Assembly: GCA_028685755.1 (NCBI GenBank)
Contig: JAQUDJ010000014.1
Location: forward strand, 1-55,556
Length of the DNA: 55,556 nucleotides
Direction of reading: 5' to 3'
Source of the DNA: Eubacteriales bacterium
Lineage (GTDB): Bacteria > Bacillota > Clostridia > Saccharofermentanales > UBA5734
Part shown: positions 14,854-43,276 of the stretch, piece by piece
Numbering within the stretch: position 1 is the first letter of the stretch
Layout of the letters: each line of letters starts with the position of its first letter
Notes under the pieces: model-generated
What the model was told of the DNA's origin: nothing
What the model saw: the letters and a program-made list of their open reading frames with translations, nothing else
Databases searched by the model: none
Translations under genes and position numbers: made by a program

Positions 14854-15849
14854 TCAACCGAGAATTTGCTCAATAGTGGCGAGTTCATCAGCATGGAAGG
14901 ATAAATTTTTCAGCGCTGCGACGTTTTCAATAATTTGCTCTGGACGACTTGCGCCAATCAAGGCTGAAGTGACACGGGGATCACGCAGTACCCATGCAAG
15001 GGCAAATTGCGCTAGGGTTTGGCCACGAGCCGCTGCGAGTTCGTTCAGCTTCTGGATCCGTGCGAGTTTTTCGGTCGTCAGTGCGTCGGCAGTTAAATAA
15101 CGACTATTACTCGCGATGCGAGAATCTGCCGGAATACTTTGTTGGTATTTGCCTGTGAGCAGACCTTGTGCGAGGGGTGAAAAGGCAATAATGCCAACTC
15201 CGGTTTCCCCAACTAGATCAATCAAGCCTTCCGTTTCGATCCAGCGATTTAGCATCGAATACGATGGCTGGTGAATCGCGCAAGGCGTGCCCAAACGGTG
15301 GAGAATTGCAAGTGCGGCACGCATTTCATGCGGGTGATAGTTAGACAAACCAATATAAAGCGCTTTTCCTTGGCGCACAATTAGATCCAAAGCGGCCATC
15401 GTTTCTTCTAAAGGTGTGTCTAAATCCGGGCGATGGTGATAGAAAATATCAACGTAGTCGAGTCCCATCCGGCCAAGACTCTGGTCAAGGCTAGCAACAA
15501 GATATTTTTTGCTCCCCCAGTTGCCATATGGACCGGGCCACATATCGTATCCAGCCTTAGTCGAAATCAAGAGTTCATCGCGGTATGGTTTAAAATCGAG
15601 GGAGAAAATTTGGCCAAATGAAGTTTCTGCGCCACCGTAAGGTGGTCCATAGTTATTAGCCAAATCAAAATGAGTGATCCCAAGATCAAAAGCTTGGCGT
15701 AGCAAAGCACGCTGCCGATCAAGGGGTGTTGTCTCACCAAAATTGTGCCAGAGACCTAACGTCAGAGCGGGCAATAGTAGGCCACTTTTGCCACTGCGAC
15801 GATATTGCATGGATTGGTAACGATCAGGATGTGCCAAATAGTCGTCCAT
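14854..15849 (-). CDS. Aldo/keto reductase, YghZ/Gpr type
   Basis: A 331-residue NADPH-dependent TIM-barrel aldo/keto reductase. The catalytic tetrad can be placed: Asp in THFDLANNYGPPYGGAE near residue 53, with Tyr in the same stretch, Lys in LLISTKAGYDMW near 92, and His in VDIFYHHRPD near 132. The NADP-binding loop lies near the C-terminus (LIGASRPEQIIENV). It resembles the YghZ (L-glyceraldehyde 3-phosphate reductase) branch. The ATG at 15849 is preceded by TTGGAGG; an upstream in-frame TTG overlaps that site. It is the first gene of the galactose operon, so it may reduce an aldehyde or the open-chain sugar. Confidence 0.9.
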   Translation of the reverse strand: MDDYLAHPDRYQSMQYRRSGKSGLLLPALTLGLWHNFGETTPLDRQRALLRQAFDLGITHFDLANNYGPPYGGAETSFGQIFSLDFKPYRDELLISTKAGYDMWPGPYGNWGSKKYLVASLDQSLGRMGLDYVDIFYHHRPDLDTPLEETMAALDLIVRQGKALYIGLSNYHPHEMRAALAILHRLGTPCAIHQPSYSMLNRWIETEGLIDLVGETGVGIIAFSPLAQGLLTGKYQQSIPADSRIASNSRYLTADALTTEKLARIQKLNELAAARGQTLAQFALAWVLRDPRVTSALIGASRPEQIIENVAALKNLSFHADELATIEQILG

Positions 15850-15867
15850 CAGGACCTCCAAGGTCAA

Positions 15868-16005: not shown

Positions 16006-16887
16006 ATGTCGAAAGTTTATAAGTTTCGCGATTTGCCTGAAGATTTTCCATTTGCGATCAAATTCGCAGAAATGGAACCTTATTACTGCATGGATCACAC
16101 CTTTCACTGGCATAATTACTTGGAAATCTCCTATGTCAAACAAGGTATTGGTCGATACTATATTGGGAATACTGTCTACGATATTGCACCAGGCGATATC
16201 ATCGTGATCAATAATATCGAGCCCCACTATATGGAAGTCTTGCCCCCAGAGCCGATGATTCAACCGGTCGTCATGTTCGACCCCCGCTTAGTCTCTTCCG
16301 GGGCGTCGCGCCTAAGTGCCGACGAGCAGTCCCTCGAACCATTTTTTGCCCGCGGCTCAAATTTCAGCAACAAAATCAAATGCAATACGGATATTGGTAA
16401 AAATATTTTTACATTGTTGACAGAAATTGAAATGGAATATCGGCAGAAAAATTATGGGTATGAATTGATGATCAAATCCAAATTGCTTAATATCTTCACC
16501 TACCTGATTCGGAATTATCAAGACGAAGGCAAATCAACCGGCAGTCAAGCCCAAAAAAATCGCCGTTTAGATCAGTTGCAAATCGTTTTTGAATACATTG
16601 ATAAACAATTTGCCGAAAATATCACGCTAGATGCCCTCGCATCACTTGTCTTCATGACGCCCAGTTATTTCTGCACCTTTTTCAAAAATTCTACGGGATT
16701 TACACCAACCCAATTTATTCACAAAGTTCGCATCTCTAAATCAATTGAAATGTTGAAAAAGAGTTCCTTCGGAATTTTTGAGATCGCCTATGCATGTGGG
16801 TTTAATAATCTAGCCAATTTTAATCGTACCTTTAAGCGAACAACAGGCCAGACACCGAGTGCGATTCGATCGCAACTCAACGTCTAA
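16006..16887 (+). CDS. AraC-family regulator with N-terminal cupin
   Basis: A 293-residue transcription regulator. A cupin-like sugar-binding domain comes first (FHWHNYLEISYVKQGIGRYY near residue 42, YDIAPGDIIVINNIEPHY near 65). Two C-terminal helix-turn-helix motifs follow from about 185: ITLDALASLVFMTPSYFC, and IFEIAYACGFNNLANFNRTF with the usual KRTTGQTPSAIR ending. The start is the ATG with TTGGAGACGAAT before it; an upstream TTG is rejected. It is divergent from the galactose operon, so it is the likely activator of that operon. Its 3' end overlaps the LacI gene on the other strand by 11 bp. Confidence 0.88.
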   Translation: MSKVYKFRDLPEDFPFAIKFAEMEPYYCMDHTFHWHNYLEISYVKQGIGRYYIGNTVYDIAPGDIIVINNIEPHYMEVLPPEPMIQPVVMFDPRLVSSGASRLSADEQSLEPFFARGSNFSNKIKCNTDIGKNIFTLLTEIEMEYRQKNYGYELMIKSKLLNIFTYLIRNYQDEGKSTGSQAQKNRRLDQLQIVFEYIDKQFAENITLDALASLVFMTPSYFCTFFKNSTGFTPTQFIHKVRISKSIEMLKKSSFGIFEIAYACGFNNLANFNRTFKRTTGQTPSAIRSQLNV

Positions 16888-17887
16888 TAATTGTGTCACC
16901 TGCGGCAAGTGTTGTATTGATCACAACCTGTTCTAAAACTTCCTGGCCTTGCATCCTACGCAACAAAATATCGACCGCGGTCGTTGACATTTGACCTTTA
17001 TAGGTGCTGATTGAAGTGAGTTGAAAGGGTAAATTAAGTCGCGATTGAATGTGGTCAAAGCCGATAATCGAGCAATCACCGGGTACGATTTTTCCTCGGT
17101 GCTGCAGACAACTCCAGGCTTCCCAAGCGAGCATATCGCTAAAGGCGAAAATCGCTGAATATGGCTGTCCTGCTGCATCAAGTTGCGCCAAAACGGCTTC
17201 GCAACCATTTGCAACAACCGGCACTTCTCGGATGAGCTTCTCGTTTACGACGAGTCCCGCATCTGCAAAAGCCCGCAGATACCCTGCACGGCGCTCACGT
17301 GCACTTGATATATACAACGCGCCATGGAGCAACAAAATATCGCGATGACCAGCTGCAAGCAAAGCCTGTGTGGCCTGAAAGCCACCCAATTCATCATTGC
17401 AGATCACATAACTGAAGCGATCGTCGCGGCGGCCAATGAGCACAAAGTCCAATCCGCTTTTTTGGAGGTAATCTAAATTCGCAGTCGTTTTCTGTGCGGG
17501 GCAAATAATGATCCCGTCGACATTTTTGTTCAGCGCTGTTTGGATCGCCTCAAGCTCAAGTGTTTCGTCTTCCATCGTATTTAACAGAATGGTCGTATAA
17601 CCATCTTCGCGCGCACGGATTTCAATTTCTTTCATTAAAATCGCAAAATGGGGATTCGAGATATCCCCAAAGATCACAGCGATTGTTTTGGTCACACCGA
17701 GGCGCAACGAAATGGCCAAAGCATTATTGACATAACCTAGGTCATGCGCAAGCTTTTTGATCTTCTCGCGCGTTTCCACGCCAATATCATCTTTATCGCG
17801 CAAAGCTCGAGAAATCGTGTTGATGCTGTAGCCCGTTTGACGAGCTAGATCCTTCAACGTGATGCTCTTTTTGTCACGAGTAGCCAT
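16877..17887 (-). CDS. LacI-family regulator (beside glycyl-radical enzyme operon)
   Basis: A 336-residue repressor. The N-terminal helix-turn-helix reads LKDLARQTGYSINTISRALR (about residues 11-30) with the hinge region after it. A periplasmic-binding-like effector domain follows (IAVIFGDISNPHFAILM near 63, GIIICPAQ near 120, SIIGFDHIQSRLNLPFQLTSI near 280). The ATG at 17887 has GAAGGTGAG upstream; 13 further in-frame codons upstream are not used. It is divergent from the glycyl-radical operon, and a LacI-type operator core lies between them at 17999-18022, so it probably controls that operon and itself. Its recognition helix resembles that of the third LacI protein at 30746. Confidence 0.9.
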   Translation of the reverse strand: MATRDKKSITLKDLARQTGYSINTISRALRDKDDIGVETREKIKKLAHDLGYVNNALAISLRLGVTKTIAVIFGDISNPHFAILMKEIEIRAREDGYTTILLNTMEDETLELEAIQTALNKNVDGIIICPAQKTTANLDYLQKSGLDFVLIGRRDDRFSYVICNDELGGFQATQALLAAGHRDILLLHGALYISSARERRAGYLRAFADAGLVVNEKLIREVPVVANGCEAVLAQLDAAGQPYSAIFAFSDMLAWEAWSCLQHRGKIVPGDCSIIGFDHIQSRLNLPFQLTSISTYKGQMSTTAVDILLRRMQGQEVLEQVVINTTLAAGDTIIRR

Positions 17888-17998
17888 AAGTCTCACCTTC
17901 AATTCTTGCGCGGATGATGCCTGCATTCATTCTACCGCATCCAGCGACAGCACTATACAGCCCAAACGGTCATTGACAGGAAATACGCAACAAATTAC

Positions 17999-18041
17999 AA
18001 TAGCATTATCGTTAATGTTAAGGTTAATGTCACGATTTATA
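17999..18041. promoter_or_regulatory. LacI-type operator and putative promoter of the glycyl-radical operon
   Basis: CATTATCGTTAA (18004-18015) has the half-symmetric TTA-T-CG-T-TAA core centred on CG, typical of LacI-family sites. The same 12 bases occur at 30669-30680. GTTAATGT is repeated at 18011-18018 and 18023-18030. A TATAAA hexamer follows at 18036-18041 and may be the -10, so the operator would cover the -35 region. Confidence 0.5.
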
Positions 18042-18081: not shown

Positions 18082-18933
18082 ATGAATGAAAAAGGGATCG
18101 TCTTTGATATCAAGGAATTAGCCGTTTTTGATGGACCTGGCCTACGAGTTACGGTATTTTTCAAAGGCTGTCCTTTGCGCTGTCAATGGTGTCACAATCC
18201 GGAAGGGATCAGCTTTAAACCGCAGTTGATGGCCAGTCCGAACGGTTGCCTGCATTGCGGCAAATGTGATGCTGTTTGCCCCTCGCTTAATCACTGCACA
18301 GCTTGCGGCAAATGTGTCACGGTTTGCCCGCGCGGTCTGCGCCGCGTGGCTGGCACAACGTATACGGCCGAGGTACTCGCCGAAAAACTACTGCGCAACG
18401 CTGACTACCTCAAAGCCAACGACGGTGGGTTTACTTTTTCCGGCGGCGAACCGACGGCGCAACCTGCCTTTCTCCTTGCCCTCTTGAAATGGTTGCGTGG
18501 CAATCACCGCGCAATCGAAACGAGCGGGTATTGCAATCCGAGCATCTTCAAGCAAATCCTTGCAGAAGTTGAACTCGTGATGATGGATTTGAAAGCGATC
18601 GACACCGAAATTCATCGAAAATACACGGGTGTCGACAACGATTTGATTTTAGAAAATTTGCAGCAGCTCAAAGCTAGCGGTGTTCCTTTTATCATCCGCA
18701 TTCCAGTCATTCCGGGCGTCAATGACCATCCTGACAATATGGCCCAAACAGCAGTTTTGTTGACTGATTGCCCTTCTCTGATACGAGTTGAGCTTTTGCC
18801 CTATCACGTGACTGCAGGCGCAAAATACAGCATGGTCGGCCTGGACTATAAGCCAAATTTCGATGTTATAGCAGAACCGAACCTGAGCACCCACGAATTT
18901 GAAAAAAGAGGTGTCATTTGCCAGGTCATCTAA
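18082..18933 (+). CDS. Glycyl-radical enzyme activating protein (radical SAM)
   Basis: A 283-residue activase that uses S-adenosylmethionine and a 4Fe-4S cluster to abstract hydrogen from the glycyl residue of its partner enzyme. The radical-SAM cysteines are Cys30, Cys34 and Cys37 in FKGCPLRCQWCHNP. Two ferredoxin-type clusters follow, with Cys56-59-62-66 and Cys72-75-78-82, as in activases of glycerol/choline-type enzymes but not PFL-AE. GGEPTAQPAF near 116 and VMMDLKAID near 157 are further family marks. The ATG at 18082 has only a distant AGGA. The partner gene starts 26 nt downstream, so the two form an operon. Confidence 0.93.
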   Translation: MNEKGIVFDIKELAVFDGPGLRVTVFFKGCPLRCQWCHNPEGISFKPQLMASPNGCLHCGKCDAVCPSLNHCTACGKCVTVCPRGLRRVAGTTYTAEVLAEKLLRNADYLKANDGGFTFSGGEPTAQPAFLLALLKWLRGNHRAIETSGYCNPSIFKQILAEVELVMMDLKAIDTEIHRKYTGVDNDLILENLQQLKASGVPFIIRIPVIPGVNDHPDNMAQTAVLLTDCPSLIRVELLPYHVTAGAKYSMVGLDYKPNFDVIAEPNLSTHEFEKRGVICQVI

Positions 18934-18959
18934 AGGCTTTGCCTTGAAGGAGTTGCGTT

Positions 18960-21029
18960 ATGAACCGTTTCATTGAAGATCAATTGACCTATTTTATCAC
19001 CGACAAAAAGCATCATCAGTTCCGAACGGTGGATTTAGACCCACAACAAGTGGCAACTGAATTTGCAGCAGCAAGTTTAGATGATCTCACGCGGGCGGCC
19101 AGGCGATTCGCCTTCGTGTTGGATCAGGAAATCCCTGTCGTCTTAGCAAACGATAAAATTGCGATCTTGCGAACGGTGAAGCACATTCCCGAAATATTCA
19201 CAATTGCAGAGTGGGCAGCAATCAAAAAATCTTACACCGTCCATGAGCAGGGCAAAGTCTGTAATATCAACCCAGACTACGCCAAGCTTTTAGCAGTTGG
19301 CACCGAAATCAAGCGCCAAGAAATCCAGACCCAACTTAGTCTTTTTCAAAATGACCCTGAAAAATCGCATTATTTGCTAACGTTACTGGTTGTGTTGGAT
19401 GCCTTGGAAAACTTTGCCGATAAGTATCGAGCTGAAGCAATTCGTGTTGGCAACCTATCCGTGGCTGCCGTATTTGAACGCATCCCACGCGCAAGACCGC
19501 AAACTTTTCAGGAAGCCCTGCAATTTCTGCGGTTGCTGCATTTCGGCTTGTGGAGTAGCTTCAATTATCACAATACCTTGGGGCGCTTTGACCAATATAT
19601 GTATGCCTATTTCCAACACGATCTTGATACAGGCATATTAAATCGCGAAACAGCCCTTGAATTACTTGAAGCATTTTTTATCAGCTGCAATAAAGACAGT
19701 GATTTGTATCCCGGTATGCAACAGGGTGACAATGGCCAGAGTCTGGTCCTCGGCGGCCTAAATCCCGATGGCACCCAAAGCTACAACGATTTGTCTGATC
19801 TTTGTCTGCAAGCGAGTTTAGAACTCAAGCTGATTGATCCCAAAATCAACTTGCGTGTCAACAAAAAGACCCCGGTCGCCTTGTACGACAAAGGTTCTGA
19901 GCTCACACGCCAAGGTCTTGGATTCCCGCAATACTCAAATGACGACATCGTCATACAGGCGTTGAAAAACTGGGGCTATGCGGATCAAGATGCACATAAT
20001 TATGTCGTCGCCGCCTGCTGGGAGTTTATCGTGCCCGGGACCGGGATGGACATCCCCAATATTAACGCGCTGTCCTTCACCCACGTCATTGACCACGCGA
20101 TCCGCCAAACTGAAAGCTGGACAACATTTGACGACTTGATGGCCACCGTGCAAGACAATATTAAAAGCGAAGCAAGACGTCTGATGGCCTCAACCACCAA
20201 CATCTATATGGAACCCGCTCCGCTGATGAGCCTGATGATGGACGGCTGTGTCGAGCAAGTCCGTGACATTTCCCGCGGCGGTCGCTATAACAATTATGGT
20301 TTCCATGGCACAGGTCTTTCGACTGCTGTCGATTCGCTAGCTGTGATCCAAAAATACCTGTTTGAAGAAAAGCGTTTCACAAAAGATGAGCTGATCACGA
20401 TGCTAGATCGTAACTTTGAGGGGCAGGACGAGCTGCTCTCGGTTTTGCGCTATCAAAGCCCTAAAATGGGCAATGATGACGATCAAGTAGACGACTTAGC
20501 TGTCAAACTGCTGAACTGGTTTGCCGATTCTTTAGAAGGACATACAAATGATCGCGGCGGGATTTATCGCGCGGGGACGGGTTCTGCGATGTATTACATT
20601 TGGCATGCGCAGGATGAACCAGCTACACCAGACGGCCGCAAAAGAGGCGAACCCCTCGCCTGCAATTATTCGCCTAGTCTTTTTAGCCGGACGAGTGGGC
20701 CGATCTCGATCATCAAATCCTTTACCAAGCCAGATCTGACGCGCGTTGCTAATGGCGGCCCACTGACCATCGAACTTCATGACACGATGTTCCGAAATAG
20801 CGATAGTGTCCACAAAGTCGGGCAATATGTGAAAAGCTTCATCGATATGGGTGGCCACCAGATGCAGATCAACGCCGTCAATCGCGAAAAAATGATCGCG
20901 GCCAAAGCTGACCCCGATCATTATCGCAATTTAATCGTCCGTGTCTGGGGCTGGAGTGGTTACTTCGTTGAGCTCGACGAAGTCTATCAGGATCATATCA
21001 TCGAGCGCATGGAGTTGAATTTAGGTTAG
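18960..21029 (+). CDS. Glycyl-radical enzyme of unknown substrate
   Basis: A 689-residue member of the pyruvate formate-lyase superfamily, shorter than PFL (about 760) and than the diol dehydratases (about 790). The thiyl cysteine is Cys353 in VVAACWEFIVPG; its Cys-x-Glu spacing matches the dehydratase/lyase group rather than the Cys-Cys of PFL. The radical loop near the C-terminus is RVWGWSGYFVELDEVYQDHI, with Gly664, where most relatives have R-V-x-G-Y. It follows its activase and has GGAGTTGCGTT before ATG. The stop overlaps the convergent xylB stop by 3 bp. The substrate cannot be assigned; a dehydratase or C-C/C-N lyase acting on a sugar-derived metabolite is an inference from context and the Cys-x-Glu motif. 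Confidence 0.9.
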   Translation: MNRFIEDQLTYFITDKKHHQFRTVDLDPQQVATEFAAASLDDLTRAARRFAFVLDQEIPVVLANDKIAILRTVKHIPEIFTIAEWAAIKKSYTVHEQGKVCNINPDYAKLLAVGTEIKRQEIQTQLSLFQNDPEKSHYLLTLLVVLDALENFADKYRAEAIRVGNLSVAAVFERIPRARPQTFQEALQFLRLLHFGLWSSFNYHNTLGRFDQYMYAYFQHDLDTGILNRETALELLEAFFISCNKDSDLYPGMQQGDNGQSLVLGGLNPDGTQSYNDLSDLCLQASLELKLIDPKINLRVNKKTPVALYDKGSELTRQGLGFPQYSNDDIVIQALKNWGYADQDAHNYVVAACWEFIVPGTGMDIPNINALSFTHVIDHAIRQTESWTTFDDLMATVQDNIKSEARRLMASTTNIYMEPAPLMSLMMDGCVEQVRDISRGGRYNNYGFHGTGLSTAVDSLAVIQKYLFEEKRFTKDELITMLDRNFEGQDELLSVLRYQSPKMGNDDDQVDDLAVKLLNWFADSLEGHTNDRGGIYRAGTGSAMYYIWHAQDEPATPDGRKRGEPLACNYSPSLFSRTSGPISIIKSFTKPDLTRVANGGPLTIELHDTMFRNSDSVHKVGQYVKSFIDMGGHQMQINAVNREKMIAAKADPDHYRNLIVRVWGWSGYFVELDEVYQDHIIERMELNLG

Positions 21030-26394: not shown

Positions 26395-26577
26395 TTAGGC
26401 GTACATTCCCAAAATAAAGAAAACAAATAACAAAATTGCTAACCCACCAATGATCATATCCATGGTTTTGAGCTTGATGTTGATTTTGTTATAAAGTCCA
26501 AATCGCTTATCGAAAAGCGAGCCGGAAGATTTGATCGGTTGGGTCGGGGTTGATAGATCGATTTCAGGTTCAGTCAT
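26395..26577 (-). CDS. Small single-pass membrane protein at the end of the mgl operon
   Basis: A 60-residue protein from the ATG at 26577, which has AAAGGA at good spacing; an ATG three codons upstream is also possible. A polar N-terminus (TEPEIDLSTPTQPIKS) leads to SLFDKRFGLYNKINIKLKTM and one C-terminal transmembrane helix DMIIGGLAILLFVFFILGMY. It lies 31 nt after the permease gene in the same direction. I think similar small proteins accompany sugar permease genes in other Clostridia, which would make it a candidate transporter accessory subunit. No function is known to me. Confidence 0.65.
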   Translation of the reverse strand: MTEPEIDLSTPTQPIKSSGSLFDKRFGLYNKINIKLKTMDMIIGGLAILLFVFFILGMYA

Positions 26578-26608
26578 GTCGCTCATATCCTTTTCTGGTT
26601 GCACGTGA

Positions 26609-27694
26609 TTACTTCTTGGCGATGTATTTGCGGACGTCAATCGCAACTGCAATGATAATGATCAAACCGCGAATGATGTACTGGAAATAGGCATTAACGC
26701 CTAAAAACGCGAGAATGAAGTTGATTGTGATTAGTAATAAGATACCGACGACGACCCCTGGGATATTGCCGACGCCTCCGGTGAAGGATACACCACCAAT
26801 AACGCAGGCTGAAATTGCATCAAGTTCATAGTTCGTCCCCGTGCTGGAGTTGCAAGACTGGATCCGAGCGGTTTCGAGGAATGAACCGATTCCGTAGAGG
26901 ACGCCGGCCATGGCAAAGACGCCGATGATAGTCTTTTTGACGTTGACACCGGAAACGGCTGCGGCTTCAAGGTTACCACCGACCGCAAACATATTCTTAC
27001 CTAAGACGGTTTTGGTCCAGATAATGTGCATGACAAATGCTGTCAAAGCAAAATAGAAGACGAGCATCGGGATCTGGAAAGGTCCGAATGAAACAAATTT
27101 GAAAAGTGCGATATCAATAAATCGTTGGTCAAATGTTGACAAGGACATCGATGAGCCAGACGGTTGCCCCTCAACGTAGAGACTTGAAACACCATAGGTG
27201 ATCAGCGATGTACCCAAGGTTATGATGAAGGCATGCATCTCGAGAACCGCCACACCAAAGCCATTGATCACAGAAACTAATACTGAGATCGCAATGCTCA
27301 AAATAAGCGCAATGATCGGCAGAAGCCACCAACCAGCACCTTGAAAAATGGCCATTTCGGAAAGTTGCGGATAATAGCGTGTGCCGTACGTGAAGGCTTG
27401 GACAAGTGATGCAACAACAACGCTACTCAAGCCTAAAATACGACCAATAGCCAAGTCAGTACCGGCCAAAACGATGATCCCGGCGCAACCCAAGGCTAAA
27501 ATACCTTTTGTTGATGCTTGCGTGATAATGCTAATGATGTTTTCAACTCGTAGGAAAGGTGTTTTGGTGGGGTCGAGCCAGGTCGTAACTGAAACAAATA
27601 CAATTATCGCGCCGAGAATAATGTACAGTGCATAGTTTAGAATAAAATCCCGGAATTGTTCACTGCTAAAACGGTTTGCAATTTTCTTTTCCAT
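26609..27694 (-). CDS. mglC: Galactose/methyl-galactoside-type ABC transporter permease
   Basis: A 361-residue permease of the BPD_transp_2 family with about ten membrane segments. Family marks are GILALGCAGIIVLAGTDLAIG near residue 68, a VINGFGVAVLEMHAFIITLGT segment near 140, KTVLGKNMFAVGGNLEAA near 230 and an ISACVIGGVSFTGGVGN segment near 295. It forms the channel for the MglA ATPase and the MglB lipoprotein. The sugar (galactose, glucose or related) is inferred from MglB. It starts 12 nt after mglA ends. Confidence 0.92.
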   Translation of the reverse strand: MEKKIANRFSSEQFRDFILNYALYIILGAIIVFVSVTTWLDPTKTPFLRVENIISIITQASTKGILALGCAGIIVLAGTDLAIGRILGLSSVVVASLVQAFTYGTRYYPQLSEMAIFQGAGWWLLPIIALILSIAISVLVSVINGFGVAVLEMHAFIITLGTSLITYGVSSLYVEGQPSGSSMSLSTFDQRFIDIALFKFVSFGPFQIPMLVFYFALTAFVMHIIWTKTVLGKNMFAVGGNLEAAAVSGVNVKKTIIGVFAMAGVLYGIGSFLETARIQSCNSSTGTNYELDAISACVIGGVSFTGGVGNIPGVVVGILLLITINFILAFLGVNAYFQYIIRGLIIIIAVAIDVRKYIAKK

Positions 27695-27706
27695 ATCAAT
27701 TCCTCA

Positions 27707-29227
27707 TCAAACGTATTTGGCGGAGAGGTGCATGATCAATTCCTGAACATTGGGCTTTGCCAGATCATTTTTCTCCAGAATACCACTCATGTGACCATTA
27801 CTCATGACTAGAATACGATCGCAAATCCCGACAAGTTCTGGCATTTCGCTCGAAACCATGATGACCCCTTTGCCGTTTCCGGCCAGATCCAAGATCAATT
27901 GATAGATTTCATATTTAGCGCCAACGTCAATACCTCGAGTCGGTTCGTCCATCAACAACACTTCCGGCTTGGTTAACAGCCAGCGTCCGATGATCACTTT
28001 CTGCTGATTGCCACCTGATAAGTACTTGATTTTAGTTTTCTGGCCTGGGGTTTTAACCGACATGGATTTGATAACCCACGCGGTATCTTCCATCATTTTA
28101 TGATTGGAAAGCAGACCAAATTTTAAGTAACTCCGGATATTGGTCAGGGTTGAGTTGAAGATCAGGTTCATTAATGGGAACAAACCCGTTGCTCGTCGCT
28201 CTTCGGTGATCATCGCGAAGCCATTTTTGATGGCTGCTTTGGGAGATCCATTATCAATTAATTTACCACGAAGTGAAATGGTTCCGGATCCCAAGGATTC
28301 GACACCAAAGATCGTCTGCAATAATTCAGTGCGGCGAGAACCAACCAGTCCAGCAACGCCTAACACTTCACCTTGTCTGAGCTCAAAGCTGACGTTTTTA
28401 CAGGTCGGCTCATATTTACCGGTCAAATCTTTGACTTCCATCAGGACGTCGCCCGGGGTATTGGTTTTGGGTGGGAAACGATGGGACATATCACGGTTAA
28501 CCATCAGATTAACTATTTCGTCAATGCTGATGCTGTCACTTGGGCACGTGTGAATCCACTGACCGTCGCGCATGATCGTGACGTCAGCCGATATCTTTTT
28601 AATTTCATCTAGTTTGTGGGAGATGTAGACAATTCCAACACCCCGATCGCAAAGTTTGCGAATGATGCGGAACAAATGTTCCACCTCTTCATCCGTTAGG
28701 GATGAAGTTGGTTCGTCAAGGACAAGGATCTTAGCATTGTGAGAAACGGTCTTAGCAATTTCAACCATTTGACGTTTGGAGACAGAGAGTTTGCCAATTT
28801 GAATTTTAGGGTTGACATCGATTTCGAGTTCTTTAAAAACAGACATGGTATCTTGGTACATTTTTTTGTGGTCGATTAAGCCGTTGCGAGTCGGGAATCG
28901 ACCAAGCCAGATGTTTTCCATAACATTTCGGCGCAGGACCTGATTGAGTTCCTGGTGAACCATGGCAACACCATTGTCCAAAGCATTGCGTGGATTGTTG
29001 AAGTTAATTTCTTCACCTTCCATGCGAATGATGCCGGAATCCTTACGGTAAATACCAAACAGACATTTCATCAAAGTGCTTTTGCCGGCGCCGTTTTCGC
29101 CCATCAGAGCATGGACCGTGCCTTTGCGGAGTTTCAGCTGAGCATTGTCTAAAGCTTTAACACCGGGAAAGCTCTTTTCGATGTTGATCATTTCCAGCAA
29201 ATAATTTTCGTTGTCCGTATTGATCAC
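27707..29227 (-). CDS. mglA: Galactose/methyl-galactoside-type ABC transporter ATP-binding protein
   Basis: A 506-residue double ATPase of the sugar ABC type. The first domain has Walker A GENGAGKSTLMKCLFGI near residue 43, the LSVSKRQMVEIAK signature and Walker B ILVLDEPTSSLT. The second has a degenerate Walker A (GLVGSRRTELLQTIFG), LSGGNQQKVIIGRWL and VLLMDEPTRGIDVG. The start is probably the GTG at 29227 (M-INTDNENYLLEM), because homologues have only a few residues before YxLEM and the frame further up starts with TTG in the hairpin-side spacer. An ATG 11 codons downstream is an alternative. It lies between mglB and mglC. Confidence 0.9.
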   Translation of the reverse strand: MINTDNENYLLEMINIEKSFPGVKALDNAQLKLRKGTVHALMGENGAGKSTLMKCLFGIYRKDSGIIRMEGEEINFNNPRNALDNGVAMVHQELNQVLRRNVMENIWLGRFPTRNGLIDHKKMYQDTMSVFKELEIDVNPKIQIGKLSVSKRQMVEIAKTVSHNAKILVLDEPTSSLTDEEVEHLFRIIRKLCDRGVGIVYISHKLDEIKKISADVTIMRDGQWIHTCPSDSISIDEIVNLMVNRDMSHRFPPKTNTPGDVLMEVKDLTGKYEPTCKNVSFELRQGEVLGVAGLVGSRRTELLQTIFGVESLGSGTISLRGKLIDNGSPKAAIKNGFAMITEERRATGLFPLMNLIFNSTLTNIRSYLKFGLLSNHKMMEDTAWVIKSMSVKTPGQKTKIKYLSGGNQQKVIIGRWLLTKPEVLLMDEPTRGIDVGAKYEIYQLILDLAGNGKGVIMVSSEMPELVGICDRILVMSNGHMSGILEKNDLAKPNVQELIMHLSAKYV

Positions 29228-29339
29228 CACTTCCACTGTTATTGACTTGAAAGATCCAGTCAAAGCCCGCAATTGATTCGAGCTGTGACTGGACAGTGTC
29301 AAGTTATCCTACAAAATACTTGTGCTGATTATAGTGAAG

Positions 29340-29373
29340 CTGGGGCACTTAAATCGGGATTTAAGTGCCCCAG
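29340..29373 (-). other. Intercistronic hairpin between mglB and mglA
   Basis: A 16-bp perfect inverted repeat, CTGGGGCACTTAAATC (29340-29355) with its complement at 29358-29373, starts 27 nt after the mglB stop. There is no clear T run on the minus-strand side, so it looks more like a 3'-stabilising or attenuating hairpin than a full terminator. That would give more MglB than MglA/C. Confidence 0.7.
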
Positions 29374-29399
29374 CTCACTGGGTTTAAATGTGATTCTGT

Positions 29400-30479
29400 T
29401 TATTGGATCTTGGCATAAGGGATACGGACAGAGTATCCATCAGCAGCCATCTCGTAAGATGTGCCATCGAGCCAGCCTTTGTCCAATGCACCATTGACGG
29501 CGATCGTGACAACAGCTTTACCCATTGCATCGCCATCTTGTTTGACTGTACCGGCCATTTTGCCAGCAGAAATAGCTGCAGCAGCTTCGTCGGTTGCGTC
29601 AACGCCGTAAACTGGGATGTAGTTTTTAGCTTTGTCGCCGGAATTGAAGCTGACTTGATTGAGGGCAGCGATAACACCGATTGCCATACCGTCATTATTG
29701 GTGAAGATGGCTTCAACTTTGCTACCGACGCTGGCCCATGCAGCGGTCATTGTGTCTTGTGCTTTTGCAGTGTCCCAATCGCAGACATAGATGTCTGAGC
29801 TGGCGAGTTCCATTTTGACGCCTTTGGCGACAGCAGTATCGATGGAGTATTTGGTACGAGCGATTGCTTCAATGTTGTCGGCTTGACCTTTGAACATCAG
29901 GTATTGGCAGACGCCGTCACCATTTTTGTCCCAAGCAGCGTTGGCTGCCCATTGTTCAGCAAAAATTTCACCCTGCATGACGCCAGCTTCTTCAGGTTTG
30001 GTGCCGATGAAAAGGCTTTTGGCAGCTGGTACGAGGGTTTTAGAATCGGTTGGTTCTTTGTTATAGAAGAGGACCGGTACGCCTTTGGCGGCGGCTTTGT
30101 CGATCAAGGCTTGAGCAGCACCATCGGTGGCTAGGTTGATGATCAAAAGATCAATCCCTTTGGCGAGCAGTGTATCGCACTGGTCGTTCTGGGTGGTCTG
30201 GTTGTCGTTGGCATCTTGCATATCAAGATTAACGGTGACACCTTGTGCATCGCCAACTTCTTTGGCATATTTTTCGATAGCTAAGCGGACGGTTGATCCA
30301 TAGGCGTCACTGAATTTCCAAACGAGAACACCGATGTTTACGGTTTTGCTTTCAGCGGCTGCTGCGGTGGTTGCAGCTGCCTGTGTTTCTGCTGCGCCAG
30401 CGGTGGTTGCGGCGGCGCCGCAGCCGGTGAGAGCAAGGGCCATTGTGAGGATCAAGATTAGAGCAAGGATTCTCTTCAT
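29400..30479 (-). CDS. mglB: Galactose/glucose-type substrate-binding lipoprotein
   Basis: A 359-residue extracellular lipoprotein. A signal peptide MKRILALILILTMALALTGC ends in a lipobox (LTGC), followed by an Ala/Thr-rich linker to about residue 45. The mature part has MglB marks: NLDMQDANDNQTTQNDQCD near 83, VPVLFYNKEP near 132, and the calcium loop DKNGDGVCQ near 183, which matches the DLNKDGQIQ site of E. coli MglB. FTNNDGMAIGVIAALNQV near 258 and VYGVDATDEAAAAI near 285 complete it. This argues for D-galactose/D-glucose as ligand. GGAGGAAG precedes ATG. It is the first gene of the operon. Confidence 0.93.
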   Translation of the reverse strand: MKRILALILILTMALALTGCGAAATTAGAAETQAAATTAAAAESKTVNIGVLVWKFSDAYGSTVRLAIEKYAKEVGDAQGVTVNLDMQDANDNQTTQNDQCDTLLAKGIDLLIINLATDGAAQALIDKAAAKGVPVLFYNKEPTDSKTLVPAAKSLFIGTKPEEAGVMQGEIFAEQWAANAAWDKNGDGVCQYLMFKGQADNIEAIARTKYSIDTAVAKGVKMELASSDIYVCDWDTAKAQDTMTAAWASVGSKVEAIFTNNDGMAIGVIAALNQVSFNSGDKAKNYIPVYGVDATDEAAAAISAGKMAGTVKQDGDAMGKAVVTIAVNGALDKGWLDGTSYEMAADGYSVRIPYAKIQ

Positions 30480-30663: not shown

Positions 30664-30687
30664 TGTAACATTATCGTTAACATTACA
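30664..30687. promoter_or_regulatory. LacI-type operator upstream of the mgl-divergent regulator
   Basis: The 24-bp site has the form TGTAA-nn-TTA-n-CG-n-TAA-nn-TTACA, with 18 of 24 positions symmetric and a central CG. It includes CATTATCGTTAA (30669-30680), identical to bases 18004-18015 before the glycyl-radical operon. It is 59 bp upstream of the LacI start at 30746 and probably its own autoregulatory site. Confidence 0.62.
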
Positions 30688-31837: not shown

Positions 31838-33058
31838 CTAAATGACAGGTTTTCCGAGTGCTGCAGTTTCAAGATAGGCTTTGTTTCTGAGCGTTGAAAG
31901 TGGCGCCCCACTGATTAGCAGTCGATAAAAAACGAGTGTTTCACAGATTATCGGGTCATGAGGCTCTAGTTGTGAAAGGAACACGATTGCTTTGGTTGCG
32001 GACTGTTCGGACTGATCTTGGTTGGTTTCGCGCAAGTAACGGAAGATTGCCGCAGCAATGCCTATACAGATATTTACCGGGGTAATACCCATTTCGCTAC
32101 AAAGTCGAGCTGCGCCCACCAGGCGATCATCCGGTGCGAGTTTGCGCGCGGGATCACCACCAACGCGTTCGCATGTATCACCGAGTGCTGCATTGCCAAA
32201 CCGATTGATAAGGTCCTGAATATGTAAAATAATCGGCTCGCAGTCGACATGAAACTGTTTTGCCAACGCGCGGGCACCTTCGTGCATGGCATTTTGGACG
32301 ATCAAGAGTGTATCTGCGTCGATAATCGATTCTTGAATGTAAGTTCGCCCTGCATAGTCCCCGAGATAGGCGCAAATCGCGTGGCCCATATTATGAATGA
32401 ACAACTTGCGCTTGATGTAAAAATCAAAGGGGCTATAAGGAATCATGTTCGTTATTTCCGGTATTTCGCCTTTAAAGGCGGCTCGGTCGACGGGCAAGAA
32501 ATTGTATGCCTCGACACAAACACGAAGCGGTTCGCCCGCTAACAGGTCCGGTGTTTGCACAGGGATCATCCGGCCAACCGATGCTTCAACTAAACCAAAA
32601 TTTTGATCAACCCAAGCGACTTCTGATGGGGCGAGTTCAGACTTGATTAATTGCATTAAGTAGCGATCGGCATGCATCAAATTCTCACAAATGATCAAGT
32701 TGAGCGGTCTGCCTGATCCTGATGTGGATATGCGCTGCCTGATTCCGGCGATAAGATTCGGTACAATCTGCGGTAGAACATTGACGCCGACAGCGGTCGC
32801 TAATAGATCGGCCTCAGCAATAGCCTGCGCGACGCTTGAAGTTTCTCGTCCATGAATCACATCAACGGGGGCGATTCGGTAGTCCTGAAAGCCCTGATTT
32901 GAAACAACTCGCACGGGGTACGCGCGATCATGCTGGAGCTGGGCAACGACCGTATCGACGACATCGATAAACGTCACAGCAAATTGAGATTGAGAAAAAA
33001 GCACCCCGATAAAGCCTCGCCCAATTCGACCCGCACCAAAAATGACCGCTTTTTTCAT
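31838..33058 (-). CDS. Mannitol-1-phosphate 5-dehydrogenase-like polyol-phosphate dehydrogenase
   Basis: A 406-residue NAD-dependent long-chain dehydrogenase of the mannitol dehydrogenase family. It begins MKKAVIFGAGRIGRGFIGVL with the Rossmann GxGxxG, and has a LIICENLMHADRYL segment near residue 125 and a FYIKRKLFIHNMGHAICAYLG segment near 208, which holds the catalytic Lys...His pattern. The ATG at 33058 has AAAGGATAAACC upstream; 61 in-frame codons upstream lie over the end of the kinase gene and are rejected. It closes the isomerase-aldolase-kinase operon 13 nt after the kinase. The absence of mannitol PTS genes suggests the substrate is a different hexitol or pentitol phosphate. Confidence 0.85.
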   Translation of the reverse strand: MKKAVIFGAGRIGRGFIGVLFSQSQFAVTFIDVVDTVVAQLQHDRAYPVRVVSNQGFQDYRIAPVDVIHGRETSSVAQAIAEADLLATAVGVNVLPQIVPNLIAGIRQRISTSGSGRPLNLIICENLMHADRYLMQLIKSELAPSEVAWVDQNFGLVEASVGRMIPVQTPDLLAGEPLRVCVEAYNFLPVDRAAFKGEIPEITNMIPYSPFDFYIKRKLFIHNMGHAICAYLGDYAGRTYIQESIIDADTLLIVQNAMHEGARALAKQFHVDCEPIILHIQDLINRFGNAALGDTCERVGGDPARKLAPDDRLVGAARLCSEMGITPVNICIGIAAAIFRYLRETNQDQSEQSATKAIVFLSQLEPHDPIICETLVFYRLLISGAPLSTLRNKAYLETAALGKPVI

Positions 33059-33071
33059 GAGGTTTATCCTT

Positions 33072-34589
33072 TCACTGAAAGTGCTGATCCGTATCGCGGA
33101 GTGCGCGAAGGGCTGGATATAGTTTTTTGTACTGGACAAATCGCTTTTGATAATACTGATGAAGGATTGGGTCTGGATAGTACGTTTTTTCGGTATGTAC
33201 GAGCTGCTTGACGGCTTCTGCAAGACTCGGGTATAGCCCACAAGCCGTTCCCGCTAAGATTGCGACACCCAGTGTGCCAGCCTCCGGCACTGCTAACGTT
33301 GTCACTGGAATGCCCATCATCGTCGCCTTGAGCTGCAGAAAAGCGGCGGATTTTGCCAACCCACCAACAGCACGCAGTTCGTTGATTGCAATGCCGGCCT
33401 CGGCTAGCCGTTCAACATTAACCATAATCTCAAAGGTGATACCCTCGAGGATCCCTTTCATGATGTCCTCTGGTTTTGTGTTGATGGTCAGACCGATGAT
33501 TGCGCCCACTGCCGCGTGGTCCATATACGGGGTTGCAGCGCCAGCAAAATGGGGCACAACCAGCACCGACGCCGGTGTAGGTGAAGCGCTTTCAATCAAT
33601 AATTCGTAGGCGTTGCGGTTTTGTTTTAGTGCTGCCGCTTTGAAGGAATCGCCAAAAGTGTCTCGATACCATTTCAATACGCTGCCACTCGTAAAACTAA
33701 ACGCATATGTCACAAAGAGGTCCGGAATTACGTGGGGGACAGACGCATAATAATTGGCAGCCATTGCTTTAGTCAGAATTGGCTTGCTAAAAGCGGGCGT
33801 AATACACTCAGTTGTACCGAGATCATCAACAGCCAGCCCCGGCTGGGTGACTCCCGCGCCAAGGGCAGCACAGGCTTGATCATGGCCACCTGCGACGAGG
33901 ACAACGTCTTGCGATAAGCCAAATAGATGAGCGTATCTTAAGGAGATCTTGCCGATGACTGTGCCTGATTGGACGGGTTGTGCAAATTTGTCGACCGCGA
34001 TCCCAACCGCGTCGAGGATTTCGACAGACCACTGCTTTTTCGTAATATCAAAGGCCATTGTCCGCGTCGCTAGCGAATAATCTGTCGCAGGTTCCGCCCC
34101 AAGTTTAAATAAAATGAAATCGGCGAACAGGAGAAATTTCCAAGTATCCGCAAAGATTTGCGGTTGATTTTTTTTGAGCCACAGTATCTTACACAGGCTA
34201 TACATCGGATCAATTGCTGTGCCCGTAATCGATAAGATTTTTTGATCGCCGAAGCGTTCTTTGAGCGCCTCGGCTTCTAGTGCGCCTCGACTGTCGATGT
34301 AAATCATGCTGTTGCAGAGGACTCGGCCGTTCCGATCAATTGCTACCGTTGCTTCGCCAAAGGACGAAACGCCGATAGCACGAATGCGGGAGCAAAATTT
34401 TGCTTGGATGGCTTCTGACATCACTTGGACGACAGCATTCCAAATTTGCTCTGGATCAAGAACCTGCCAGCCGGGTCGTTCGGAAATGAGGGCATATTCT
34501 CGATACGCTTCGGATAGGACACGTCCGTTCTCATCAATGATAGTTGCTTTGCAACCGGACGTGCCGATATCTAATCCGAGCAAACACAT
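33072..34589 (-). CDS. FGGY-family sugar kinase
   Basis: A 505-residue ketose/polyol kinase. The phosphate loop LLGLDIGTSGCKATIIDENG is at residues 3-22, and ATP-site marks are VLVAGGHDQACAALGAGV near 240, VVPHFAGAATPYMDHAA near 335, and LRAVGGLAKSAAFLQLKA near 400. It looks like the xylulokinase branch but lacks the LSGQMHG substrate motif of XylB; it has GVSSFGEATVAID instead, so it probably acts on a different ketose. The ATG at 34589 has AAGGAG upstream. The gene lies 17 nt after the aldolase and 13 nt before the dehydrogenase. Confidence 0.88.
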   Translation of the reverse strand: MCLLGLDIGTSGCKATIIDENGRVLSEAYREYALISERPGWQVLDPEQIWNAVVQVMSEAIQAKFCSRIRAIGVSSFGEATVAIDRNGRVLCNSMIYIDSRGALEAEALKERFGDQKILSITGTAIDPMYSLCKILWLKKNQPQIFADTWKFLLFADFILFKLGAEPATDYSLATRTMAFDITKKQWSVEILDAVGIAVDKFAQPVQSGTVIGKISLRYAHLFGLSQDVVLVAGGHDQACAALGAGVTQPGLAVDDLGTTECITPAFSKPILTKAMAANYYASVPHVIPDLFVTYAFSFTSGSVLKWYRDTFGDSFKAAALKQNRNAYELLIESASPTPASVLVVPHFAGAATPYMDHAAVGAIIGLTINTKPEDIMKGILEGITFEIMVNVERLAEAGIAINELRAVGGLAKSAAFLQLKATMMGIPVTTLAVPEAGTLGVAILAGTACGLYPSLAEAVKQLVHTEKTYYPDPILHQYYQKRFVQYKKLYPALRALRDTDQHFQ

Positions 34590-34606
34590 GGCAAATTCTC
34601 CTTTTT

Positions 34607-35611
34607 TTAGCGATACCAAATGCGCAAATGTGCATAGACGATAGATTTCATCACATCAAAAACGACAGTTTGGCGATAGGTGGTCGTGAAATAATCGATC
34701 GACGCTTTACTTTCACTATCGACTGAATCACCGAGATAATTTTCGGCTTTGAGCGCCTGAATCAGCTGGTTTCCGGCAACTTGGCTCGCATGCATGACCA
34801 TTTCCTTGAATAACACGGGGGACGAATCGCGTTCGAGCATTGTCCAGAGATTCACTTTACAGACGCCGTCATCGATGAGTCCAGCGAGTTGATCGCCGGG
34901 GACCGACGAGGCCCCATGCAAAACCAACCGTGTGCCAATTCGCGCTTGAATCGCCTGGGCATAATCACCATGGTATTTTTTGTCCATCCCAACCGCACGG
35001 TGTTCGGTGCCGAGATTGGCGACGATTAGGTCTGCGCCGGTGCCGTCAAGATAGTCCTGGGCTTTCTGCGCGCTCGTTAGCACACTGGTGATTCGCCCGG
35101 ACTCATCGGCAATTTCATCGCATGCACCTTCGATAACAATTTCGTCACCATGTTGCTCAACAAAAGCCCGAGTCAGGCGAATGTTTTCAGCAAAGGGCGC
35201 CCGAGAGGCATCGTACATAATCGAGGAAAATTCGCGCATATCCCAGTTGAGCAAGTCTTGGTCATCATCAAATTGCGTGTGATCAAGATGAATCATGATC
35301 CGCAGTTTTTCATAAGGTGAACCGGGCTCTGCCAGGACGCGAAGATCGGCCATAAAGAGCTTGAGTCCAATATCCCAACGGCGCGTGTGGGTGTAGAAAA
35401 TTGATTGGCTGCGATCGTGGTATTGGTTGGTTATCGCGATGATGATCGGTAAATCGACGATGCCTAAAGATGCGCCATATTCGCGCGTAGCCTCAAGAAT
35501 TGCCTCCGTTGTCGTGAGATTTTCCGTGCAAAAACACGGCAAAACCCAATGCTTTTCGCGAGCTTCTTGATATATTCCAAGGACATCTTGACGGTGAGTA
35601 ATAATCGGCAT
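34607..35611 (-). CDS. Class II (zinc) ketose-bisphosphate aldolase-like protein
   Basis: A 334-residue TIM-barrel aldolase of the FBA/TagBP class II family, which splits ketose phosphates to DHAP and an aldehyde. Zinc and catalytic marks are RIMIHLDHTQFDDD near residue 105 (HLDHT for the usual HLDHG), IEGACDEIAD near 163, NLGTEHRAVG near 203, LVLHGASSVPGDQL near 233 and CKVNLWT near 255. The GASS in place of GGSG and an N-terminus with LPCFCTENLTT show a divergent branch, so the substrate is probably not fructose 1,6-bisphosphate. It lies 53 nt after the isomerase gene. Confidence 0.85.
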   Translation of the reverse strand: MPIITHRQDVLGIYQEAREKHWVLPCFCTENLTTTEAILEATREYGASLGIVDLPIIIAITNQYHDRSQSIFYTHTRRWDIGLKLFMADLRVLAEPGSPYEKLRIMIHLDHTQFDDDQDLLNWDMREFSSIMYDASRAPFAENIRLTRAFVEQHGDEIVIEGACDEIADESGRITSVLTSAQKAQDYLDGTGADLIVANLGTEHRAVGMDKKYHGDYAQAIQARIGTRLVLHGASSVPGDQLAGLIDDGVCKVNLWTMLERDSSPVLFKEMVMHASQVAGNQLIQALKAENYLGDSVDSESKASIDYFTTTYRQTVVFDVMKSIVYAHLRIWYR

Positions 35612-35664
35612 AATTGCCTCCAGTATTCACATCGCAGCTCGCTCTGCTACTCAACCATCTGAAG

Positions 35665-37071
35665 TTAGTCGAGTTCTGTCAGGTCATATTTTAGATAATA
35701 TTTGATCGCTTCATCGAGAATATGTTTCATATGGCCCACCCCAATTGTCGTGTGATGGCGAAATCCATTGCGTCCGAGTTTAAGCAATTTGTCTTGGAGC
35801 TTATCGATCCGAGCTACGCCTCCACATCCAAAAAAACCATCTTGTAACGGGTCGTCTGTCATTTCACCCTCACCGACATAGAAGGTTAGTTTGCCATCTT
35901 CTGTTTTACAGTTGGCATAAGTCATTGGGAAGGCTTTGATCCGGCCCTCATTGGTGCCCCAACCACGATCCGGCACATGTTTTGAGAACATTTTGTGATC
36001 TGTTATCGTGCCGCGTGCAGCCATCAGCGTTTCAGCAATTGGGCCGCAATGGAATAAGACCACTTTATCGGGATCATTGCCGTAATTGTTGTTCCAATCG
36101 ACGCAGGCAGCCGGGGTTTCTGAGGCAAGTACCATCGCACGCATACTAATCGCTGAACTCAGGTCAATTTCACAGGATGCCGCAATGCCGCGATCGTTCA
36201 ATTCGCTTAAAAGTACGCAAGGTGCGATCCCAAAATAGGTCTGGAGCTCTTCCCAGCAACGCAATGTTAACGCGTCCAATTGATATTCCTCGCGGTATTC
36301 ATCGAGGACTACACCAAGTTTAGCGATCGAAAGCGTCCGCTGATCCGGCACTTTGGAAAAGTCGGTATATGATTTCAGTTGGCGAATCTTTGTCTGGACA
36401 GCAAGGTCGTCGTCCTTCTTTTCGCCCATGCGATGAATTACCATCGATAAATCGAAGGTTTCCACAGTGATCCCGTACTTTTGCAAGGTGATTTCGTCAA
36501 AACGCACGGTTTTGAAAGCCGTGGTCCGTGCGCCAAAGCAGCCAATGGTCACGCGTTTCATCCCTTTGACGACGCGACAGACTGCCGCAAAGTCTTGGAG
36601 ATTCTGGCGGAAGGCTTCAGATCGGGGATGCACAACATGAGGGGCGAATACCGTAAAAGGAATGCCATATTGGTGAAAAACATCTTCAATACTGAATTTG
36701 CCACAATAGGCGTCATGGCGGTTGCCAAAGGTCATTTTGTCGAGTTCATCGGGGTAGGCTTGAATGAGAATCGGCACACCAGCATCTTGCAAGGCCATCA
36801 CGGCCCCGTTTTCATCGCTAAAATTGGGCATGCAGAGAATGACGCCATCATATTCGCCTTCATGCGACTTGAGCCATGTAGCATATTTTCGGCCGTCTTC
36901 GCGGGTTTCAACACCACCAAAGGCGGTCGCGTTTTCATCCATCATCAGAAAGTTGATGTTGTTTTCGGCGACAACCTCACTCATATCGATGCGAGCGCCA
37001 GCGATCAAGGTTTCCGGCATAAAGCCGCGGTTACCAAAATACAGTGCAAAGGTCATTTTTCGCTTTTCCAT
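35665..37071 (-). CDS. L-fucose/L-arabinose isomerase-superfamily protein
   Basis: A 468-residue protein of the fucose/arabinose isomerase fold, which converts an aldose to a ketose with a divalent metal. Visible are a GVILCMPNFSDENGAVMALQD stretch near residue 76, VTIGCFGARTTAFKTVRFDE near 173 and a SELNDRGIAASCEIDLSSAIS stretch near 282, where the Glu/Asp metal ligands lie. FHCGPIA and HHTTIGVGHM fall in the C-terminal domain. It is shorter than FucI (about 590) and not AraA, which is encoded separately at 39412. GGAAGGAGTTTT precedes ATG. It is the first gene of the operon and is divergent from the PocR-AraC gene. Confidence 0.82.
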   Translation of the reverse strand: MEKRKMTFALYFGNRGFMPETLIAGARIDMSEVVAENNINFLMMDENATAFGGVETREDGRKYATWLKSHEGEYDGVILCMPNFSDENGAVMALQDAGVPILIQAYPDELDKMTFGNRHDAYCGKFSIEDVFHQYGIPFTVFAPHVVHPRSEAFRQNLQDFAAVCRVVKGMKRVTIGCFGARTTAFKTVRFDEITLQKYGITVETFDLSMVIHRMGEKKDDDLAVQTKIRQLKSYTDFSKVPDQRTLSIAKLGVVLDEYREEYQLDALTLRCWEELQTYFGIAPCVLLSELNDRGIAASCEIDLSSAISMRAMVLASETPAACVDWNNNYGNDPDKVVLFHCGPIAETLMAARGTITDHKMFSKHVPDRGWGTNEGRIKAFPMTYANCKTEDGKLTFYVGEGEMTDDPLQDGFFGCGGVARIDKLQDKLLKLGRNGFRHHTTIGVGHMKHILDEAIKYYLKYDLTELD

Positions 37072-39271: not shown

Positions 39272-39319
39272 ATATTTTCGGACATTTCGAAATAAAGATG
39301 ATTGCTTTGCGCAGTTTTT

Positions 39320-39335
39320 ACTTGTACCATCAAGT
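39320..39335. promoter_or_regulatory. AraR-type operator before araA
   Basis: ACTTGTACCATCAAGT is a 16-bp imperfect palindrome with the same ACTTGTA...CAAGT arms as the site at 38126-38141. A further half-site-like TTGTATGA follows. It is about 77 bp upstream of the araA ATG. Confidence 0.62.
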
Positions 39336-39411
39336 TGTATGAAATAGTAGTCACCGTCAACATGCCTGGCACGTAAACGTGATATTTAAAAATAAGTGGA
39401 GGAATTTTTTC

Positions 39412-40890: not shown

Positions 40891-40909
40891 ATTAAAAAAG
40901 GGGCTGGCC

Positions 40910-42517: not shown

Positions 42518-42521
42518 AGCT

Positions 42522-43226: not shown

Positions 43227-43276
43227 ATCGGCGAATGGATGTCTCGCACCAATGCCCGTTGAAAGGATGATTTCCT

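Follow-up and report, generated by a model that had tools for sequence, protein, structure and literature searches.

What does a glycyl-radical enzyme (GRE) do when it is encoded among sugar genes, carries the active-site motif of an eliminase and matches none of the named families? The question is raised by contig JAQUDJ010000014.1 of an Eubacteriales bacterium (assembly GCA_028685755.1), analysed here over 55,556 nucleotides (the window), which encodes a 689-residue GRE directly behind its activase. A first-pass annotation, made from the letters alone, had taken the pair for a dehydratase- or lyase-like enzyme of a poorly described branch acting on a sugar-derived metabolite. By its active-site loop the protein is a superfamily member of the Cys-x-Glu eliminase type (dehydratase or lyase), with eliminase activity predicted, and by sequence comparison it belongs to no characterised GRE family among those tested. 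With moderate confidence, we read the pair as a radical C-O eliminase (dehydratase) with a dedicated activase, acting on a free L-arabinose-type sugar or a close derivative.

The reading frame, the Cys353-Trp-Glu355 motif and the radical loop Arg-Val-Trp-Gly664-Trp (RVWGW) are all present as first described (Table 1), with Cys353 encoded at 20016-20018 and Glu355 at 20022-20024. The protein matches the Pfam domains PFL-like (329 bits) and Gly_radical (57 bits), and a ribosome-binding-like GGAG stands upstream of its start, 26 bases separating the activase and GRE genes. The features that define the superfamily are found together: a C-terminal glycine loop, a cysteine loop in the barrel, a dedicated radical S-adenosylmethionine (SAM) activase and the GRE barrel fold. 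Relatives were collected by scanning 84,980 bacterial and archaeal genomes once, which yielded 80 loci with 50-68% identity over almost the whole length, in Lachnospiraceae and other Clostridia, Spirochaetia/Treponema, Bacteroidales (Bacteroidota), Verrucomicrobiota and Opitutales; three more lie inside the window's own order (G012, G020, G047). Members are anaerobes of several phyla, many of gut, rumen, termite-gut or digester origin; Hungatella hathewayi has a homologue (L051). Four genomes of the same genus as the window gave only matches of the pyruvate formate-lyase (PFL) type at ~26% identity. The signatures AACWEF, RVWGWSGYFVEL, YHNTxGRFDQY and DSxLYxGMQQGDNGQS vary little or not at all across 82 homologues, and IDPKiNxRV is likewise conserved (82 members), so the motifs are not a product of chance. 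All 37 rows of alignment A1 keep C353, W354, E355, W663, G664, W665, N102, Y203, H204 and K295, the Cys-x-Glu of the proposed eliminase-type active site being invariant in them. One related locus (L066:7965-10190) has the activase and operators, with no intact GRE frame called over its tblastn match; an antisense open reading frame (ORF) was kept in its place, which may be only an artefact of ORF calling.

Does this family fall within a characterised cluster? In a maximum-likelihood tree of 20 members with PflD, YbiW, PflB, glycerol dehydratase, HypD, CutC and unnamed GREs, the members form a single clade (support 100/100) on a stem of 1.93 changes per site, separate from every characterised row; for isethionate lyase, benzylsuccinate synthase, HplG and other proline-derivative GREs the comparison was by fold or a single PDB sequence, outside the tree. 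HypD and the family occupy separate 100/100 clades, CutC is likewise apart, and the family falls outside both the PflD pair (with L008) and the YbiW pair (with L012). The NCBIfam equivalog models agree, with all scores (73-307 bits) far below cut-offs of ~990-1150: HypD (NF043068, 306 against 1100), the PFL2-type PRK09983 (NF007437, 307 against 1109), CutC (TIGR04394, 242 against 1050), the sulfopropanediol dehydratases HpfG (NF048009, 264 against 1000) and HpsG (NF048011, 233 against 1000), indoleacetate decarboxylase (NF033718, 213 against 1100), 4-hydroxyphenylacetate decarboxylase (NF033715, 171 against 1150) and PFL (TIGR01255, 73 against 994). Even the broad model TIGR01774 was missed (362 against 678 bits). 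The best phmmer match among PDB chains is HypD (262 bits), and the sister in the tree is L013 (98/95), an uncharacterised, long-branched GRE whose position is uncertain because its own branch and that of the family are both long. The expectation of a poorly described branch therefore held, the GRE lying outside every cluster tested by tree and NCBIfam. No paper on the clade was found in the open-licence literature, which is weak evidence of absence.

AlphaFold, run on A1, predicts a full GRE barrel (predicted local distance difference test, pLDDT, 91; predicted template-modelling score, pTM, 0.91). The nearest solved structure is PflD of E. coli (Z 39.5, root-mean-square deviation 2.6, 673 residues aligned), with near-ties in PflD of S. 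dysgalactiae carrying 1,5-anhydromannitol-6-phosphate (Z 39.0), glycerol dehydratase (38.9), propanediol dehydratase (38.4) and CutC (37.9). In the sequence alignment Cys353, Glu355 and Gly664 coincide with Cys433, Glu435 and Gly763 of glycerol dehydratase (GDH). The positions around them, which we take to be pocket-forming from published knowledge of GDH rather than from a ligand in the model, differ: GDH His164 is replaced by Asn102 and His281-Ser282 by Tyr203-His204, the replacements being invariant, so that the pocket of glycerol and 1,2-propanediol dehydratase (His164, His281, Ser282) is not found here. The residue that follows the barrel proline, Ser or Asn in most GREs, is an invariant Lys295, and the loop RVAGYSA of the compared enzymes reads RVWGWSG. 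On this reading, the residues of the radical chemistry and the glutamate of the eliminases have been retained, whereas the substrate pocket has been rebuilt.

The activase is also as first described, both ferredoxin motifs being present in its 283-residue ORF. It matches the Radical_SAM and 4Fe-4S domains of Pfam, has a CxxxCxxC radical-SAM motif and two CxxCxxCxxxC ferredoxin motifs, and passes TIGR02494 (269 bits, cut-off 174); it reached no activase equivalog cut-off in NCBIfam. A gene of the activase cluster stands immediately upstream of the GRE (position -1) in 61 loci, and at -1 or elsewhere nearby in 75 of 82. The ferredoxin domain is not constant across the family, since 46 of 76 relatives' activases have two motifs and 26 have none.

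An operator ties the enzyme to a sugar regulon. The palindrome ACATTAACGTTAATGT, perfect or near-perfect, lies upstream of the activase or GRE gene in relatives of several phyla. An exact-pattern search of 29 genomes returned 20 sites, 19 of them at GRE loci by coordinates, and the reversed pattern, used as control, returned 0; the single remote site (L131, in the genome of L076) is ~20 bases ahead of a gene of family GH127. Genes of this family also stand behind the operator in L084 and, at 1 mismatch, in L029, so that in these three cases the operator is shared with arabinofuranoside genes; in L089 the activase-GRE genes are on one side of it and a divergent lacI on the other, with GH51 and GH127 genes beyond the lacI. 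In the window the first site is immediately 3' of the -10 box of the activase-GRE promoter and overlaps a divergent promoter-like site for lacI as well, and the second precedes a transporter instead. Both sites against 0.04 expected by chance in the window, and good sites only at 18003 and 30668, 12 kb apart, in the whole genome, bear out the operator that had been noticed as common to the GRE operon and an mgl-like region. The second operator is beside the operon of an MglB-like CUT2 importer (its binding protein scores 252 bits against the MglB model, below the cut-off of 420), which makes this importer the regulatory partner of the GRE. The first-pass annotation had seen no transporter accompanying the enzyme; this has to be revised, given the shared operator and a CUT2 or sugar-porter transporter gene in 49 of 83 loci. 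Two other candidates were discarded: a pattern of three repeats around the operator, GTTAATGTTAAGGTTAATG, is seen just once in the window, the palindrome being the correct unit, and a third site at 33415 lies off-centre within a kinase gene, the pattern control yielding comparable numbers at 2 mismatches.

Gene context narrows the sugar. It was counted in 83 GRE loci and 59 control stretches from the same genomes, although the loci are not independent and most controls begin at a contig end. Any of GH51, GH127 or AraA occurs in 23/83 GRE loci and 1/59 controls; an aldose mutarotase in 16 loci, a sugar porter in 24 and a LacI regulator of the same family in 28, all three with 0 in controls. GH127, the beta-L-arabinofuranosidase family, was observed 8 times in GRE loci where 0.60 were expected (123 genes in 48 genomes), and GH51-type genes 10 times where 0.58 were expected (124 genes in 48 genomes), counts that take no account of kinship among the loci. 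A GH127-like gene lies inside the GRE operon of L137, and in L087 and L092 araA and the gene of an araB-type kinase diverge from the GRE operon. The sugar setting proposed earlier is supported and can be refined to L-arabinose-type sugars (GH51, GH127, aldose mutarotase, sugar porters) rather than xylose: the adjacency to xylAB is peculiar to the window, and as a general rule the xylose link was rejected, with XylA near none of 83 relatives. The window and the Bacteroidota loci share no more than importer, activase and GRE, with neither kinase nor isomerase. AraA over the cut-off, or essentially so, was found at full length in 24 of 49 GRE-bearing genomes (23 in another tally) and was not found over the cut-off in 25 of the 49; the isolates among these 25 include Parabacteroides chinchillae and Massiliimalia massiliensis, both with arabinofuranosidase genes. 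Small cupins like ureidoglycolate lyase or DUF4867 recur beside the activase and GRE (L025:6628-7119, L030:6647-7135, L033:10073-10690 and L076).

Table 1. Positions in the window of the activase-GRE operon, its predicted catalytic residues and the elements that share its operator
Feature	Position	Strand	Basis
Divergent LacI-family regulator, family c5	16877-17926	-	Homologue in 28/83 related loci
Sigma-70-like promoter of the activase-GRE operon, TTGACA-17-TACAAT, 11/12	17973-18001	+	Consensus match only
LacI-type operator AGCATTATCGTTAATGTT, immediately 3' of the -10 box	18002-18019	.	Pattern match; homologous operators in relatives
GRE-activating enzyme, radical SAM (CPLRCQWC) with two ferredoxin-type 4Fe-4S motifs, 283 residues	18082-18933	+	
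GRE of an uncharacterised clade, 689 residues	18960-21029	+	ORF, Pfam, NCBIfam, tree, AlphaFold
Cys353-Trp354-Glu355, predicted thiyl-radical cysteine and catalytic glutamate	20016-20024	+	Aligned with GDH Cys433/Glu435
Gly664, predicted glycyl-radical residue, within RVWGWSGYFVEL	20949-20951	+	Aligned with GDH Gly763
Operator-sharing CUT2 sugar ABC transporter operon	26395-30479	-	
Permease of the transporter	26609-27694	-	
ATPase of the transporter	27707-29302	-	
MglB-like binding protein of the transporter	29400-30479	-	
Second operator AACATTATCGTTAACATT, between the transporter operon and another lacI gene	30667-30684	.	

From the computed family, fold, conserved residues, operator and gene context we infer a radical chemistry, a dehydration, a substrate and a product. 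A LacI-family repressor at operators of the ACATTAACGTTAATGT type would turn on enzyme and sugar importer jointly. The activase would place a radical on Gly664, which would be handed to Cys353 to give a thiyl radical; in a substrate with several hydroxyls, this would take hydrogen from a C-H bond adjacent to one of them, Glu355 would act as the base on that hydroxyl while the adjacent C-O bond breaks and a hydroxyl is lost, and return of the hydrogen would leave a deoxy product. The substrate is most likely an imported free L-arabinose-type aldose, perhaps the homomorphous D-galactose too, or a first direct derivative such as a pentitol. An unphosphorylated substrate is more likely than a sugar phosphate, and a sugar-sized one more likely than a small diol. 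If it is an aldose, the mutarotase could supply the correct anomer, and the SMP-30/gluconolactonase-like genes found downstream in L034, L039 and L045 would be in keeping with a lactone-type product; a pentitol would yield a 2-deoxypentose, in keeping with DeoC. The operons with mutarotase and porter favour the aldose, not firmly. That direct radical dehydration of free L-arabinose or a homomorphous aldose provides anaerobes with a pentose route independent of AraA is a tentative proposal, in our view doubtful as it stands.

Several observations weigh against an arabinose-type substrate. Sixty of the 83 loci have no arabinose-specific marker, and some have GH36, GH2, GH78 or GH106 instead, or sets of FucI-like isomerase, kinase and class II aldolase; with markers missing or different in so many loci, the sugar could be of D-galactose type or vary by subclade. 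The galactose link itself is a minor possibility, GH36 being near 5 loci and GH2 near only 3. The GRE of the window adjoins galKET and xylBA, and the window carries its own complete araABD under a separate AraR-like regulator. The general-acid histidine of known dehydratases, GDH His164, is Asn in this GRE, and either another residue takes that job or the chemistry differs. Gene context cannot fix substrate, regiochemistry or product.

Among the other readings, a polyol version would have an aldo-keto reductase (AKR) reduce the pentose to a pentitol, which the GRE would convert to a 2-deoxypentose, to be phosphorylated by an FGGY kinase and cleaved by DeoC to acetaldehyde and a triose phosphate. 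Glycerol dehydratase, acting on glycerol, is a model for dehydration of a pentitol. The operon of L039 encodes a zinc-type alcohol dehydrogenase, FGGY kinase, DeoC, AKR, activase and GRE consecutively; L045 is similar, L034 has the set in part and also DeoC, the unrelated L138 has DeoC alone, and an AKR of the L-glyceraldehyde-3-phosphate reductase subfamily is near the GRE in the window. However, DeoC is present in just 4 of 83 loci and AKR in 7, the DeoC gene of the window's genome sits on a different contig, and the Bacteroidota operons, with mutarotase, porter and arabinosidase and with no reductase, kinase or DeoC, point to an aldose; we consider the pentitol route unlikely, though worth keeping in view. 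A small diol would be reached differently: the pentose would pass through a ketose-1-phosphate to dihydroxyacetone phosphate and glycolaldehyde, the latter reduced to ethylene glycol, from which the GRE would make acetaldehyde, parallel to the known pathway from fucose or rhamnose through 1,2-propanediol to propanal. FucI/SftI-like isomerase, class II aldolase and FGGY kinase genes are each found in 9 of 83 loci (as in L022, L028, L038, L042, L044 and L052 in part), and the fold is near those of the glycerol and propanediol dehydratases. Yet the GDH diol-pocket positions His164 and His281-Ser282 are all invariantly changed and most loci, the Bacteroidota operons included, have no isomerase/aldolase set. 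In addition, as the first-pass annotation had said of the locus, there is no microcompartment, the domain PF00936 having zero matches in the window's whole genome. This route seems to us quite improbable.

A lyase like PflD or YbiW, opening or dehydrating a phosphorylated sugar or anhydro-sugar, is suggested by PflD as nearest solved structure, with near-ties close behind, and by the reported action of PflD and YbiW on 1,5-anhydro-hexitol 6-phosphates (PMC12441222). Against it stand the separate, supported pairs that both enzymes form in the tree, a segment following FFISCN that is ~5 residues shorter in the GRE and conserved differently, and operons in which neither a phosphotransferase system (PTS) nor a kinase is constant; we regard such an activity as very unlikely. 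The generic PFL-like Pfam annotation could finally mean that a divergent PFL-type enzyme has been mistaken for a sugar enzyme. Ala352-Cys353-Trp-Glu355 takes the place of Cys-Cys, the TIGR01255 score is that given above, and a distinct PFL-type relative is already encoded in the genome (G000:C1:47792-48346, 26% identity). PFL activity was rejected on motif and score, and we attach hardly any credence to it.

Other parts of the window concern the same sugars. An araR-araA-araB-type kinase-araD-galM set occupies 38174-44329, its regulator AraR-like (GntR with a sugar-binding domain), so the classical L-arabinose route is also in this organism. An operon at 31838-37071 encodes a FucI/SftI-like isomerase, a class II aldolase-like protein, an FGGY kinase and a mannitol-dehydrogenase-like protein; homologues of its isomerase and kinase, with aldolases of the same broad family, adjoin the GRE in L022, L028 and L038. 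The AKR is encoded at 14857-15867 and has homologues in the DeoC loci L034, L039 and L045.

It is important to consider what such an enzyme would add. Earlier GRE clades, once characterised, gave new anaerobic reactions of choline, hydroxyproline, sulfonates and anhydro-sugars. There is a fair chance that this clade, presumably working like the Cys-x-Glu eliminases, performs a new reaction, and its context (arabinofuranosidases, mutarotase, importer and a private operator) is specific enough for a short list of substrates. If the preferred reading is true, fibre fermentation would have a new branch in which a common pentose of plants is dehydrated by a radical mechanism, and deoxy-sugars might be obtained in this way. 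The wider GRE space extends far beyond the named families: many GREs were seen per clostridial genome (G147, G157, G177, G183, G187 and G204; up to ~15-20 first-look candidates), a large share of them short (650-780 residues) and uncharacterised. In the GREs of L017 and L019 the active-site loop reads GCSQ, with Gln in place of the eliminases' catalytic Glu.

Among known systems, PflD and YbiW of E. coli provide the precedent, by analogy, for GREs acting on sugar-type substrates (PMC12441222). The present enzyme shares with them the GRE fold, Cys-x-Glu and a sugar-type substrate with C-O cleavage, as predicted here; it differs in identity (~25-28%), in its separate clade, in length (689 residues against 765 and 810), in Asn at their His164-equivalent and Lys295 at their Asn, and in having no PTS or phosphate context. 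Glycerol dehydratase of C. butyricum and 1,2-propanediol dehydratase of R. inulinivorans have the same fold and Cys-x-Glu; their pocket residues His164/His281/Ser282 are Asn/Tyr/His in the GRE, which belongs to a sugar-importer regulon with no microcompartment. HypD, the top phmmer PDB match, also has Cys-x-Glu, and the context of the GRE is sugar, not proline. The L013-type GRE (G022:C21:5089-7296, read as L136, 735 residues) shares the Lys at 295 and the GW loop (RVCGWNAYFV), whereas GCYEPC replaces AACWEF, His stands where the family has Asn102, and its surroundings on a 7.4-kb contig contain no recognisable sugar hydrolase.

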